From NCBI GenBank assembly GCA_016938615.1, contig JAFGUH010000017.1:1-50170 (forward strand): a stretch of 50,170 bases of DNA, in the 5' to 3' direction. The stretch is from Halothiobacillaceae bacterium. GTDB lineage: Bacteria > Pseudomonadota > Gammaproteobacteria > Halothiobacillales > Halothiobacillaceae. The translations under genes and the position numbers were made by a program. Positions 514 to 45,986 of the stretch are shown here, piece by piece. Below the pieces are notes generated by a model that was not told the origin of the DNA, ran no database searches, and was given only the letters and a program-made list of their open reading frames with translations. Every line of letters starts with the position of its first letter. Positions within the stretch are counted from its first letter, which is position 1.

Positions 514-786
514 GGGGCAATCTGCACGATTCGACAGGGTCTCTGCGGGACCGCCTAGGGGCCCGTTGGAAGACGCGGTGAGTGGCCGTCCGCCAGTCGC
601 AAGCGTGACAACGCCGAAGCTGGGCCCTTGGCGGCCCGCCCGGAAGGGTTCGCGGGGTTGCACGCCCGCCGCAATGCCGTCTCTCGACGGCCCCGAGTCA
701 TTGCCTGGATCCGTCTTCGATCTGACGCCGGGAGAAGCGCTTCAGCCCGCGAGCCGACGGCACCATCGAATCGTGCGGCGTTTCCC
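514..786 (-). repeat. Structured intergenic repeat, copy A (diverged)
   Basis: A diverged full-length copy of the window's dispersed repeat, in reverse orientation, filling most of the gap between gltB and damX and ending 10 bases past the damX stop. It retains the conserved internal blocks (GGGCGGGCCGCCAAGGGCCC and CCGTCGAGAGACGGCA on the complementary strand). Both ends carry CACGATTCGA where other copies have CACGAATCGA, so the two ends share a variant particular to this copy. No plausible gene is encoded in it. Confidence 0.8.
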
Positions 787-17752: not shown

Positions 17753-18034
17753 AGGGAAACTCTGCACGAATCGATGGAGCCTCTGGCTCGCGGGTTTGTT
17801 CGCTTTTCTGGCGCCGGCTCGAAGACGGGGCCAAGGCAATTACTCGGGCCCGTCGAGAGGCGGCTTTGCGGCGTGCGGGCAAACCCGCGAGCCCCATCCG
17901 GGCGGTTCGCCGGGGGCTGATCTGCGGCGAAGCCGCGTGTGCGAATGGCGAGGCCCATTCACGGCACACCGCGCCTTGCATCTGGACCCTTGGCGGTCTC
18001 GCAGAGACACTATCGATTCGTGCAGAGTTTCCCT
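17753..18034 (+). repeat. Structured intergenic repeat, copy B (full length)
   Basis: A 282-base copy lying between the divergent plsY and esterase genes. Its ends are a perfect 23-base inverted repeat (17753-17775 and 18012-18034, starting AGGGAAACTCTGCACG). Inside, GGCTCGCGGGTTTG (17785-17798) is perfectly complementary to CAAACCCGCGAGCC (17880-17893), with a nested GACGGGGCC...GGGCCCGTC stem. Both ends carry GGGAAAC where most copies have GGGAACC. No gene is encoded. Confidence 0.92.
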
Positions 18035-23483: not shown

Positions 23484-24908
23484 ATGGCCCATCACGATGA
23501 CCAAAGCTACGCGGCTGACCCCGTTTACGCAGCACGCGAGCCGATCCATCCCAAGGGGGTACAGGGGCGATTTCGTCGCTTCAAGAACCTCGTGTTGCTG
23601 GTCGCCTACAGCGTGTTCTTCCTGTTGCCCTGGCTGCGTTGGGAGCGGGCTAGCGGACCGGATCAGGCGGTGATGTTCGACATCCCGTCACGCCGCTACT
23701 ACCTGTTCGATCTGGTGATCCATCCCCAGGACATGTTCCTGCTGGCGGGATTCCTGATCCTGGCGGCCTGGTTGCTGTTTTTCGTCACCGGGCTCGTCGG
23801 TCGCGCGTTTTGCGGGTACTTCTGCTTCCAGACGTTGTGGACCGATACCTTCATGAAGGTCGAGGCCCTGGTCCAGGGAAACCGCAACAAGCGTATGCGC
23901 CTGGAAAAGCAGCCTTGGAACGCCGAGAAGATTGCCAAGAAGGGCGTCACCGTCGCGATCTGGACGGCTATCGCCTTCTGGACGGGCTTCACGTTTACCG
24001 CCTACTGGGCCAACGCACCGCAGTTGCTCGTCGACTTCTTCACGCTGGACGCGGCCAAGGCGGCCTACATCACCACCGGGATTCTCACCGCGACCACGCT
24101 GCTCGCCGCTGGCTTCGCCCGTGAGCAGGTCTGCATCTACATGTGCCCCTACGCTCGCTTTCAGAGCGTGATGTTCGACAAGCAGACCCTGCTGGTCTCC
24201 TACGATGCCGCGCGCGGCGAAGGCAGCTCGGGGCGGGGGGCGCTCAAGAAAGGGTTGATGACCCTCGATGAAAGGCACGCCGAGGGGGTGGGCGATTGCA
24301 TTGATTGCCAATTGTGCGTGCAGGTCTGTCCGACCGGCATCGATATTCGTGACGGCCTCCAGCTCGAGTGCATTTCCTGCGGCCTGTGCATCGATGCCTG
24401 CGACCAGATCATGACCAAGCGTGGCTGGCCCACCGGACTGATCCGTTACGCCTCCGAGGAGGAACTGGAGACCGGCGAGAAGCCCAGCCTGCTGACGTTC
24501 CGCACGATCGGCTACGGGGTCGCGACCCTGGCCGCGACCTCCTTGCTCCTCTATGGCATCCTGGCGCGCGCGCCAGCCGACCTTTCCGTTCAGCAGGTGC
24601 GCCAGCCGTTGTTCACGGTGCTCTCCAGCGGCGACATACAGAACAACTACAACGTCAAGATCAACAACAAGCTCCAGCGTCCGCTCGATTTCCGGCTGTC
24701 CCTCGAGGGGCTGCCGACCGCCCGGGTGAGCGTGGTCGGTGATTTCGACGGGTTGTCCGTGCCCGCCGACGGTTCGCGGCGGTTCCTGGTGCATGTGCGT
24801 GCCCCGGGTGACACCCAAGTGGATCGTCGCGAGATAGAATTCGTGCTCACCGAACAGAACGGGCGTATCGAGCCACTCGAACACGACGCGAGCTTCGTCT
24901 TTCGTTAA
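23484..24908 (+). CDS. ccoG: Cytochrome c oxidase accessory protein CcoG
   Basis: Polyferredoxin-type membrane protein needed for cbb3 oxidase assembly, proposed to reduce copper for CcoN. 474 residues: membrane segments near 35-55, 85-105, 160-180, 195-215 and 340-360; a CGYFCFQTLW motif; CIYMCPYARFQ; and two ferredoxin clusters CIDCQLCVQVCPTGIDIRDGLQ (given in part) and CISCGLCIDACDQIM. The C-terminal 120 residues form an Ig-like IG-fold domain. Its TAA stop lies inside the first bases of repeat copy C. A TATAAA at about 23446 may be a -10 box but I see no matching -35. Confidence 0.96.
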   Translation: MAHHDDQSYAADPVYAAREPIHPKGVQGRFRRFKNLVLLVAYSVFFLLPWLRWERASGPDQAVMFDIPSRRYYLFDLVIHPQDMFLLAGFLILAAWLLFFVTGLVGRAFCGYFCFQTLWTDTFMKVEALVQGNRNKRMRLEKQPWNAEKIAKKGVTVAIWTAIAFWTGFTFTAYWANAPQLLVDFFTLDAAKAAYITTGILTATTLLAAGFAREQVCIYMCPYARFQSVMFDKQTLLVSYDAARGEGSSGRGALKKGLMTLDERHAEGVGDCIDCQLCVQVCPTGIDIRDGLQLECISCGLCIDACDQIMTKRGWPTGLIRYASEEELETGEKPSLLTFRTIGYGVATLAATSLLLYGILARAPADLSVQQVRQPLFTVLSSGDIQNNYNVKINNKLQRPLDFRLSLEGLPTARVSVVGDFDGLSVPADGSRRFLVHVRAPGDTQVDRREIEFVLTEQNGRIEPLEHDASFVFR

Positions 24909-25191
24909 GGAACCTCTGCACGAATCGATGGTGCCTCTGGATCGCGGGTTTGTTCGCTCTTCTGGCGCCGGCTCGAAGACGGGCCCAAGGCAATTGCTCG
25001 GGCCCGTCGAGAGGCGGCTTTGCGGCGTGCGGGCAAACCCGCGAGCCCCGTCCGGGCGGGCCGCCAAGGGCCCATCTGCGGCGTTGCCGCGTATGCGAAT
25101 GGCAACCGCCATTCACGGTACACCGCGGCTTGTACCTGGACCCTTGGCGGTCCCGCTTCAGACATTGTCGATTCGCGCAGAGGTTCCTTAA
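24905..25191 (+). repeat. Structured intergenic repeat, copy C (full length, best preserved)
   Basis: A 287-base copy between ccoG and ccoH that overlaps the ccoG stop codon. Terminal inverted repeats: 24905-24928 and 25168-25191, one mismatch in 24 (TTAAGGAACCTCTGC then A or G, then CGAATCGA). Left arm: 24942-24952 pairs with 25034-25044, with a nested 9-bp stem 24978-24986/25000-25008. Right arm: CCGCCAAGGG 25061-25070 pairs with 25141-25150, with an apical hairpin GAATGGC-AACC-GCCATTC at 25097-25114. The reading frames inside are by-products of the high GC and not genes. Confidence 0.92.
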
Positions 25192-25263
25192 ACCATCCGT
25201 CGTCAGGGCGAGCGTTTCGGGCCATCATCCGAACACCCACCTGACGCAACCAGGGTATTGCTA

Positions 25264-26064
25264 ATGGCTGTATTGCTCCCCGCTGGACTCGGAATCTTCC
25301 TCATCCCGCTGCTGTTCTTTGTCCTTCGGTGGCGGTTCCCCACCGCCGGCCGACAGATTGCCTTCATTCTGGGCGTGCTCGCGCTGGCGGCTTACGCCCC
25401 TTACGCGATTCACGAATGGCCCGGATTGGACGTGGTCGCGATGGTGGTTGCCATCCTGGTGATGACTGCCTTCATCCTCGGAATGATCTCGCCTCCCCGC
25501 CATGCCGAGTCGCACAAGATGACGTTTCACGCGGGACCGGCGACGATCATCGCCTTTTTCGCGGTTATCATCCTGCTCGATTCGATCTTCCTGACCATCG
25601 CCACCCGCGGGCTGAGCGAGAACGCAGCGCGGCAGTTGTTGCCGGAGCCGCAGGGGGGGTCTGTGGCCACCTCCTATTTCCCTGGCACGGTCGCCCACGA
25701 CTACCAGGAAAAGGTCGCGCAGTTCCAGGCCTATGACGCGATGCGCGAGCAACAGGAGCGCCGGGGATGGCAGGTGCACCGTGGTTGGATAGGTGAGCCG
25801 GTCGTCGACAAGCCCACGCCGTTCCGGATCGAGGTGCGCGACGCTGAGGGCGAACCGATTCGAGATGCCGAGGTGACGGCGAAATTCCTGCGCTTTTCCA
25901 GCCAGGCCCTCGACTTCAGTCGACGGCTCGACGAGATCGAACCGGGGGTCTATCAGGCGACGATCACGCCGACCCGCCCGGGACGTTGGGAGATCATCGT
26001 CAATGTCCGTCGTGACGGCAAGACCCACCAGTTGCGCGGCATGACCGACATCGCCAAGCCGTGA
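25264..26064 (+). CDS. ccoH: FixH/CcoH-family cbb3 oxidase assembly protein, extended N-terminus
   Basis: 266 residues. The C-terminal part, from about residue 150 (EKVAQFQAYDAMREQQERRGWQV ... KPTPFRIEVRDAEGEPIRDAEVTAKF ... YQATITPTRPGRWEIIVNV), is a FixH domain. It is preceded by three or four membrane segments in the first 120 residues, where most FixH proteins have one; this is either a fused small membrane domain or a lineage-specific form. Position between ccoG and ccoI supports CcoH. Expected to help copper insertion and complex assembly. The ATG at 25264 is used. Confidence 0.85.
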   Translation: MAVLLPAGLGIFLIPLLFFVLRWRFPTAGRQIAFILGVLALAAYAPYAIHEWPGLDVVAMVVAILVMTAFILGMISPPRHAESHKMTFHAGPATIIAFFAVIILLDSIFLTIATRGLSENAARQLLPEPQGGSVATSYFPGTVAHDYQEKVAQFQAYDAMREQQERRGWQVHRGWIGEPVVDKPTPFRIEVRDAEGEPIRDAEVTAKFLRFSSQALDFSRRLDEIEPGVYQATITPTRPGRWEIIVNVRRDGKTHQLRGMTDIAKP

Positions 26065-26090: not shown

Positions 26091-26424
26091 GGAACCTCTG
26101 TACGAATGCCTTACCGCTCTGCGTGCCTTGAGCCGGGCAGATGCAAGGCGCCCGTCCGCCGCGGACGAGTCGTTCAGACATTCTCGGAGGGCAACACGGC
26201 AGGTGTGCGGATCGAGGCGCGCCCGGCGGGACTTCGCAAGTCATTCCGGCCTCGCCTTGCTCGGCGTTTACCGGGCTGCGGCGTGGCACTGGCATGCCGT
26301 CCCGGGTCGCCCATGCTCTGCGTTGCGATGTCTTGCGATGGTCAACGTCACGTCGGTTTGCAAGCGCCTTGATTACGAACGACTCGCCCAGCCTTCAGTG
26401 GCATGGCATTCGTGTAGAGATTCC
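26091..26424 (+). repeat. Structured repeat, copy E: family ends with an unrelated interior
   Basis: Lies between ccoH and ccoI. The ends match the family (GGAACCTCTGTACGAATGCC at 26091-26110; the reverse complement of 26405-26424 differs at 3 of these 20 bases), and both ends share ATGCC where other copies have ATCGATGG. The 290-base interior has none of the conserved family blocks but has its own inverted repeat CAAGGCGC (about 26143-26150) with GCGCCTTG near 26364. No gene is seen in it. Confidence 0.7.
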
Positions 26425-33683: not shown

Positions 33684-33820
33684 TGCTGTCGGCTTGCGGA
33701 ATTCGCCCGTGAATCCCGCCTTGCGGGTCAACTGGCGCCGATCCGTTTCAATCCTTGAACAGGGCGACGGCCCTGCACGGCGGACAGCGCCTCGCAACTT
33801 GATGCTTGGCGGCCTGGCTT

Positions 33821-34130
33821 GGGAACCTCCGCACGAATCGATGGTGCCTCTGGCTCGCGAGTTTGTTCGCTTTTCTGGCGCCGGAGCGAAGGCGGGCCCA
33901 AGGCCATAACTCGGGGCAATAACTCGGGGCAATAACCCGGGCCCGTCGAGAGACGGTAACGACGAGTGCGGGCAAACCCGAAAGCCCCGTCCGGGCGGGC
34001 CGCCAAGGGCCCACCTGCGGGGCTGCCGCGTATGCGAATGGCGACGGGGCCATTCACCGCGCGCCGCGGCTTGCATCTGGACCCTTGTCGGTCCCGCGTC
34101 AGACACTATCGATTCATGCAGAGGTTCCCT
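33821..34130 (+). repeat. Structured intergenic repeat, copy D (full length with small insertion)
   Basis: A 310-base copy between ribE and ribBA. Ends: GGGAACCTCCGCACGAATCG at 33821 and the complement of GATTCATGCAGAGGTTCCCT at 34111-34130. It has the same internal arms as copies B and C, lengthened by a 14-base tandem (CAATAACTCGGGG-type unit at about 33907-33940) in the loop of the left arm. It lies 75 bases upstream of the ribBA promoter. Confidence 0.9.
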
Positions 34131-38690: not shown

Positions 38691-38928
38691 GGAACGAACG
38701 GATAGCGCGCGCTGGTGGTTTCGTGCGATCCATCAGGGTGTGTCCCACGGCTCGTGCTCGTCGATCGGGCCAATCGCTCTCGCAGGTCCGCCCAGACTGG
38801 GCTCGCGGGTTTGCCCGCACTCGGCGTTCCCGGCCCTCGACGGGCAATGAGCCCGCCTTCGGTCCGGCGCCAGAAAAGCGAACAAACCCGCAAGCCAGAG
38901 GCACCATCGATTCGTGCAGAGGTTCCCT
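38691..38928 (-). repeat. Structured intergenic repeat, copy F (shortened)
   Basis: Reverse-oriented copy upstream of moaB. The half nearest 38928 is well conserved (end AGGGAACCTCTGCACGAATC on the minus strand; GCGGGTTTGTTCGCTTTTCT; GTGCGGGCAAACCCGCGAGC), while the other half has diverged and its end, CTATCCGTTCGTTCC, lacks 7 bases of the normal terminus. The left arm stem is intact; the right arm is not recognisable. Confidence 0.75.
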
Positions 38929-39373: not shown

Positions 39374-39654
39374 AAGGGAACCTCTGCTCGAACCGATAGA
39401 GTCTCTGCGGTACCGCCACGGGTCCAGGTACTAGGCGCAGTCCGTCGAGGGCCGTTGCCCTTTACAAGAGCTGCAACGCCGTAGATGGGACCTTGGCGGC
39501 CCGCCTGGACGGAGGCTCGCGGGTTTGCCCGCACTCGGCGTTGCCGTCTCTCGACGGGCCCGGGTCACTGCATTGGGCCCGTCTTCCAGCCGGTGCCTTG
39601 ATTGCGAACAAACCCGCAAGCCAGAGGCGCTATCGATTCGTGCGGAGGTTCCTT
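39374..39654 (-). repeat. Structured intergenic repeat, copy G (full length)
   Basis: A 281-base reverse-oriented copy between the DUF3579 gene and the asparaginase-like gene. Ends: AAGGGAACCTCTGCTCGAAC at 39374 and, on the minus strand, AAGGAACCTCCGCACGAATC from 39654. All internal arms are present; the apical hairpin of the right arm has a different stem (AGGGC...GCCCT) around the same AAC-type loop, a change that keeps pairing. A TAGAAT follows its right end. Confidence 0.9.
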
Positions 39655-45799: not shown

Positions 45800-45986
45800 G
45801 AGGGTTCGCGTGCGTATGACCGGTCCGAGGATAGCGGGTTCGCCGGGGCGGCGCGCCTGTCCGTCGCCTGTGCTCGGCGTTGCGACGCCCCGACGCGGTC
45901 ACCGGCACATCGGCTTTGGGGCGCCCTTGATCCAAAACGGCTTCGCGAGGCCGAAGCGATATTCGATTTGTCCAGAGTTTCCCTTA
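45800..45986 (-). repeat. Structured intergenic repeat, copy H (degraded)
   Basis: Region between divergent bepA and the rhodanese gene. On the minus strand it begins AAGGGAAACTCTGGACAAAT, close to the family end, with ATCAAGGGCGCC and CGTCGCAACGCCGAGC related to the interior of copy G. The other end is not recognisable and its boundary is approximate. Confidence 0.5.

Follow-up and report, generated by a model that had tools for sequence, protein, structure and literature searches.

What are the palindromic intergenic sequences that recur along a 50,170-nucleotide stretch of Halothiobacillaceae DNA (hereafter the window), how do they move, and which part of them is conserved? A sequence-only reading had described them as an unrecognised family of structured repeats and had left a MITE, a RAYT-mobilised REP-like element and a structured RNA as candidates.

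Copies in the window and the genome

The repeat family proved to be real, and its inverted ends are present in the window. We defined complete copies by pairing left and right ends of the GGAACCTCTGCACGAAT type, and recognised decayed and half copies by BLAST against copies from elsewhere in G000, a Halothiobacillaceae draft genome of 2.395 Mb in 267 contigs. Eight copies had been proposed; five are complete and one is complete but decayed, and the other two (38786–38926 and ~45866–45982) are half copies (Table 1). BLAST against copies elsewhere in the genome also narrowed copy F, previously placed at 38691–38928, to the first of these half-copy intervals, and the span given for copy C, 24905–25191, takes in a TTAA duplication on each side of the element proper, 24909–25187. 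At least two sequence families can be distinguished, family I (ends ...CGAATCGATGG) and family II (ends ...CGAATGCCAT); copies D and H are of the latter type.

Table 1. Repeat copies in the window and the parts of copy C
Feature	Position	Strand	Evidence
Copy A, decayed complete family I element	~515–785	-	~77% identity over 280 columns to a copy in own_L199; arm match 545–639
Copy B, complete family I element	17755–18032	+	paired ends; target CCAG/CTAG
Copy C, complete family I element, 279 bp	24909–25187	+	each end ≤1 mismatch from GGAACCTCTGCACGAAT; TTAA/TTAA flanks
Copy C, left target duplication TTAA	24905–24908	.	sequence
Copy C, right target duplication TTAA	25188–25191	.	sequence
Copy C, left terminal inverted repeat	24909–24932	+	pairs with 25164–25187
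Copy C, right terminal inverted repeat	25164–25187	-	pairs with 24909–24932
Copy C, left arm (limits approximate)	24936–25046	+ (CAAGGCG-type fold)	covariation, alignment A1 columns 33–131; fold
Copy C, right arm	25056–25156	- (CAAGGCG-type fold; model match on + strand)	R1, 84.2 bits, E 2e-16
Copy D, complete family II element with extra internal sequence	26091–26424	-	arms 26121–26222 and 26296–26392
Copy E, complete family I element	33822–34128	+	target duplication CTTG/CTTG
Solo arm adjoining copy E, outside its terminal repeats	33723–33818	+	R1, 34.2 bits, E 2.5e-5; absent from the earlier reading
Copy F, half element (one arm and one terminal repeat)	38786–38926	-	~90% identity over 142 bp
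Copy G, complete family I element	39377–39652	-	target TAAG/TTAG
Copy H, decayed half of a family II element	~45866–45982	+	~73% identity over 118 bp

Across the draft genome, the 19-nt end gave 195 matches with three or fewer mismatches, and the reversed pattern used as a control gave none. The earlier extrapolation to hundreds of copies per genome was somewhat too high, since about 100 pairs of recognisable ends were found in the 2.4 Mb, although the family is indeed numerous. Many G000 contigs stop within or just past an element (C32, C34, C45, C100, C205, C212, C245 and C262); near-identical copies thus break the assembly, and the true copy number is higher. Among 57 related genomes, the ends occur across the genus save in one incomplete genome, and also in one other genus of the family, and were found in none of the other families sampled. 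Named relatives carrying the exact end are Halothiobacillus, Guyparkeria, Acidovorax, Xylophilus and Diaphorobacter.

The TAA of the left TTAA duplication of copy C serves as the stop codon of the ccoG/fixG gene (23484–24908; FixG_C domain). The segment 23484–28923 carries ccoG, a small membrane protein gene (25258–26064), which is ccoH-like by position, and the copper ATPase gene (ccoI/fixI), and two elements break into this cco cluster, the first following ccoG and the second preceding the ATPase gene. Elements lie between co-directional genes in the cco and rib clusters of the window and, at another locus, between acyl-CoA dehydrogenase and CaiB genes.

Besides intact copies, the family includes short copies (55–199 bp) and chimeric ones, so that parts recombine. 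The chimeras have a family II end joined to a family I arm, or an extra third arm (L042 8515–8850, L190 16306–16638, L213 1243–1623), which indicates that the arms recombine as modules. Family I and II elements also stand head to tail (L199 4878–5144 and 5147–5425; G000 C34:231–272 and C100:121–162), 2–4 bp apart and apparently within one common target duplication; such arrays would arise by insertion at the CTAG of an older copy.

Transposition and the IS5 group

The first of the proposed identities, a MITE, was borne out by the terminal repeats, by 4-bp target duplications and by empty orthologous sites. In 104 element copies from Halothiobacillaceae, the four flanking bases on the two sides were identical in 27 cases, as against 8.1 expected and a maximum of 17 in 1000 shuffles; the excess was seen at 4 bp and was almost absent at other lengths. 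The flanks on both sides read C/T-T-A-A/G (the YTAR type), with CTAG, TTAA and TTAG among the duplications.

To compare orthologous sites, we retrieved the syntenic region from nine sister genomes, and sites with and without a copy were found among them. G005 and G006 have an empty site in place of copy G (GATTAGAATCA): where the window reads TAAG-element-TTAG, they show just one TTAG. None of the eight sister genomes that cover the ccoG stop codon carries copy C there, and a copy present in G003 stands at a site that is empty in G010. Elements with a second end type gave a further example in Azotobacter chroococcum plasmids, where a CTAG site at the end of an IS630 transposon is occupied in L343 and empty in L345. 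For the Pseudomonas aeruginosa plasmid copy, no related plasmid with an empty site was found. The mobility of the elements is thus well supported, and these data support the identification of the window repeats as non-autonomous transposons (MITEs). As additional observations, elements sit exactly at the terminal CTAG of the IS630 transposon (L343 315–1501; L345 1049–2237), on different sides in the two plasmids, and in G001, G002, G003, G007 and G010 the TTAG orthologous to the copy G site holds a different insert of ~125–160 bp, with ends like GGAAGCGTCGAGCG in G007. This site is either a hot spot or the place of an older insertion of another MITE family. Copy C had no match in phage and plasmid sequences, and three matches of the element end in IMG/VR were judged to be due to chance.

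The ends and the target of the elements agree with those of the IS5 group. Using NF033581, we recovered IS5-group insertion sequences from Comamonadaceae genomes that bear the elements' ends, and three of them (L142, L140 and L141) have in common with the elements the pattern GGAA..TCTGCACGAATC. The L142 IS (1307–2494, 1188 bp) has terminal repeats GGAAGGTCTGCACGAATC, a CTAG duplication and an NF033581 transposase gene with one internal TAG; those of L140 (terminal repeats GGAAGCTCTTCACGAATC, TTAG duplicated) and L141 (terminal repeats GGATAGTCTGCACGAATC) have intact reading frames. Their ends differ from the element ends at 2–3 of 17 positions. Other members of the group show the same pattern with other inner letters, namely CTAG|GGAACCTCTGATTGAATCC in L084 and GGAAGGTCTGA... 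in ISPa16 and ISPpu18. The IS5 group (relatives of ISPsy2, IS1384, ISPa16 and ISPpu18; NF033581) thus resembles the elements in its GGAA..TCTG ends and its YTAR target duplication, but its members are autonomous, about 1.2 kb long, with a transposase gene and without the arm. There is a precedent in MITEPsy1 of P. syringae, a 100-nt element with GGAAGGTCTGAAAAAGCC ends that duplicates CTAG or YTAA, was observed to transpose in vivo and was ascribed by its authors to ISPsy2, of the IS5 family (PMC3189936). It is similar to the window elements in having GGAA..TCTG-type terminal repeats, a 4-nt CTAG/YTAA duplication and no coding sequence, and different in its length (100 nt versus ~266 nt), in its ends, which diverge after TCTG, in its few copies and in that no two-arm core was reported for it.

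Because of these IS5-group ends and targets and the MITEPsy1 precedent, mobilisation in trans by an IS5-group transposase appears well founded: such an enzyme, now absent from the draft genome or supplied occasionally, would cut and paste the elements. No match to a DDE_Tnp_1 (PF01609), IS5_4 or NF033581 transposase was obtained in G000, a 267-contig draft that can miss repeats. A MITE need not have a cognate transposase in its own genome if its partner has been lost. Among nine members of the genus, we found only one such transposase, with other ends, and none with the elements' exact ends. An IS5 fragment lying beside an end in L148 was rejected as a partner, being of another IS5 type with GGGCACCTCGAA-like ends. 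Searches with DDE_3 (PF13358) and DDE_Tnp_1 (PF01609) for partners of the other end types described below returned none with matching ends; an IS in G401 with AGTGTCGTCAC ends is similar in style only, and most of the end types that are not IS5-like were matched by no transposase. With respect to mobility, the window copies add new members to the IS5-group MITEs.

The two-arm core and its distribution

Each element consists of two long inverted arms placed back to back around a short central hairpin. The cloverleaf proposed earlier for copy C was upheld by its predicted folding energy, −180.8 kcal/mol as compared with −124.1 ± 5.7 for shuffled sequences (z = −10). Most stem letters differ between families I and II, and yet the two can be aligned at an equal length of 266 bp, and in an alignment of 40 elements (A1), 43 of the 89 predicted pairs show changes on both sides. 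The covariation score of 47 arms was 0.689, against 0.168 ± 0.012 after shuffling and ≤0.10 for slid controls. Another 44 arms, drawn mainly from other genomes, scored 0.833 against 0.180 ± 0.012, and slid controls stayed at ≤0.153. As to structure, then, the structured-RNA candidate of the sequence-only reading holds. It is compatible with the MITE identity, since the element is a MITE whose core is both structured and conserved.

Each arm has two internal loops that keep their letters, CAAGGCG opposite GCAACGC and, on the other strand, CTTG opposite GC.GCG, and the stems beside them change freely. In the 47-arm alignment, the outer-stem columns mostly carry 0.1–0.9 bits each and 94% of the cells pair; the loop columns C26, G30-T31-T32 and C90-T91-T92-G93 are nearly invariant.

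The two strands of an arm are not equivalent. In 72 of 91 arms (p 1e-9), the predicted fold of the CAAGGCG..GCAACGC strand is the more stable of the two; with one arm taken per locus, stem cells that are not Watson-Crick are G.U on this strand rather than the reverse by 32:10 (21 loci versus 4, p = 9e-4). Both p values are inflated by relatedness among the sequences. At the first internal loop, the conserved U.G pair becomes G.U on the other strand, and the asymmetry therefore concerns the stems and the overall stability, not every pair. The bias in stability, and the excess of G.U over A.C, suggest that selection acts on the folding of a single strand in which G.U is tolerated, that is, RNA or single-stranded DNA.

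We then followed the arm beyond the family with covariance models, as the sequence-only reading had advised; the model finds the window copies and the same architecture in relatives and more widely. R1, trained on Halothiobacillaceae right arms only, retrieved the window copies together with 11 Comamonadaceae elements of a one-arm, 161-bp type. At E ≤ 1e-3 it matched 64 of 274 Gammaproteobacteria genomes, usually many times per genome, and gave no match in 210; a second model, R2, at E ≤ 1e-4 matched 71 of 398 Pseudomonadota genomes, other classes included, and gave none in 327. The unmatched genomes serve as the specificity control. The E-values of both models are rough, the models having been calibrated on 0.2 Mb, and copy numbers in genomes other than G000 are lower bounds, since at most 10–14 candidates were scored in each. 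Since the models know nothing of the ends, the terminal repeats around their matches provide an independent check: a terminal inverted repeat closes 46 of 52 loci, mostly one per genome, but none of 109 control windows. The element length is 264–276 bp in most loci, and wherever both arms were detected their order is always minus then plus. Plasmid-borne arms were found in Azotobacter chroococcum, Pseudomonas aeruginosa, Halomonas, Pseudoalteromonas and Comamonas.

The ends of these elements fall into 21 clusters, a number that depends on a loose identity cut-off, with GGAACCTCTG.., GGGCACCTCTATTAAT.., TAGGGTCTGTTGACG.., TAGTGTAGTGCG.., TAGTGTCCTGTC.., GTACTCCGTC.., ATACCATT.. and TACTAACCCG.. 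as examples. No arm was present in 21 control loci comprising autonomous IS5 elements and Y1 transposase genes. Derivation of the elements by internal deletion of an IS was rejected, in that R2 had no match in autonomous IS5 loci and the interior is common to different end types. These results show that the two-arm interior is a structural superfamily that extends through Pseudomonadota and carries many unrelated terminal repeats.

The claim that the family has no name holds for Rfam and the open-access literature searched, although the ends themselves belong to a known class, the IS5 group. Rfam gave no match above the gathering score (best sub-threshold E 0.34), and we found no description of a core shared across ends in the open-access literature; single families may already have been named, for instance in Polaromonas or Shewanella. 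Rickettsia palindromic elements are likewise mobile palindromes with a conserved structured RNA fold, but they belong to another lineage, have no transposon ends and are inserted within genes. To our knowledge, the Correia/NEMIS, RUP and ERIC elements each have a single end type and a restricted range of hosts, and we know of none with an interior common to unrelated ends. These and other bacterial MITEs are otherwise like the elements described here in being small, numerous, intergenic, palindromic and non-autonomous (PMC10969869). What appears to be new, as far as the open-access literature searched goes, is that a MITE interior keeps its sequence and structure in combination with unrelated ends and across a phylum.

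Readings of the conserved core

MITEs are usually regarded as deletion relics and are defined by their ends. Here the ends vary, and it is the interior that is kept throughout a phylum; its covariation equals that of classic structured RNAs in strength, and Rfam has no entry for it. Selection seems to act on the core rather than on the ends. We consider it probable that the elements are IS5-ended MITEs whose superfamily two-arm core is a conserved functional unit, most likely acting as a folded transcript. We advance more tentatively, as a proposition just short of even, that the module with its fixed loops is a selected unit throughout the phylum, a mobile RNA or single-stranded DNA function that swapped its terminal repeats among unrelated transposases and is the same in either orientation.

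The reading that competes most seriously with such swapping, though we lean against it, is that ends were not exchanged at all: one end lineage would have co-diverged with IS5-superfamily transposases, and the core would be the slower part of a very old MITE lineage. Several end types are indeed IS5-like, have CTAG/TTAA-like targets and intergrade (GGAACCTCTG, GGGCACCTC, TAGGGTCTGTTGACG), and most end types have TA-centred targets. However, the types TAGTACTCCGTC, ATACCAAT and TACTAACCCG are without similarity to IS5-group ends, the clusters number 21 even at the loose cut-off, and the short and chimeric copies show recombination of parts.

That the core acts through a single-strand fold is reasonably likely, and within that likelihood RNA takes a somewhat larger share than single-stranded DNA. 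A purely DNA-level role, in which cruciforms or single-stranded hairpins in replication or transposition intermediates would be recognised by the host or the transposase, with no RNA role, is rather unlikely in our estimate. It would be a natural function for a mobile DNA element; the inverted arms give the same fold on both strands, G.T is tolerated in DNA hairpins too, and the preference for the CAAGGCG strand could equally reflect single-stranded DNA. On the other hand, the arm was not found in the autonomous IS5 loci tested, and the ends, and presumably the transposases, vary between families while the core does not, which makes a transposase-specific role of the core unlikely.

An inert palindromic stuffer, that is, an ordinary MITE whose stems stay complementary through template switching (quasi-palindrome correction) at replication rather than through selection, appears improbable. 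Template switching yields paired changes without selection, the stems are the most variable and best-paired part, and transcripts of palindromic MITEs are common (PMC10969869). Such correction should, however, erase mismatched internal loops, which are instead the most conserved feature across families and end types; moreover, the same two-arm order and a near-constant length recur in tens of families, and the stem mismatches are strand-biased. Least probable by far, and largely refuted, is mobilisation of REP-like elements by a RAYT (Y1 transposase). Enzymes of the Y1 type do occur in the genus, and the elements, like REP/BIME sequences, are palindromic, intergenic and numerous (~100 per genome), but REPs do not make 4-bp YTAR duplications, the long terminal repeats with such duplications are not a RAYT signature, and a search of four Y1 loci found no arm in them.

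Returning to the folded transcript, we infer that the core most probably yields a structured RNA whichever way the element is inserted. It would be transcribed along with the operon or intergenic region that it interrupts. With the arms inverted, the arm on the 5′ side of a transcript would be in the CAAGGCG...GCAACGC fold in both orientations. As the likeliest use of this hairpin, we suggest that a host RNA-binding protein or RNase binds or processes it in either orientation, which could let an element lie between co-transcribed genes at little cost; such orientation-independent binding or processing would explain the tolerance of elements between co-directional genes. That processing or insulation is the purpose of the core is speculative and, in our estimate, rather unlikely. 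If the core is functional, the elements represent a large unnamed class of structured elements in bacteria, with up to ~100 copies per genome between operon genes, and why some palindromic elements spread and persist becomes directly testable through a few loop letters. The R2 model in addition allows many unannotated repeats to be assigned.

Some individual copies have unusual interiors or neighbours. In three of them (L042 112–422, L047 12573–12893 and L050 1703–2038), the right arm contains 2–5 tandem units of AAGGGCCCATCTGC, which is the conserved loop strand repeated. Two Halothiobacillus copies (L095 4789–5127 and L113 514–851) share the same extra hairpin sequence of ~72 bp (GCACAACCCGGCAGGAAAGCCGGGTTGC...) inside the left arm. 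In L097, 26 bp separate the end of a 161-bp Comamonadaceae element (868–1028) from a cobalamin riboswitch (Rfam RF00174, 1054–1244).
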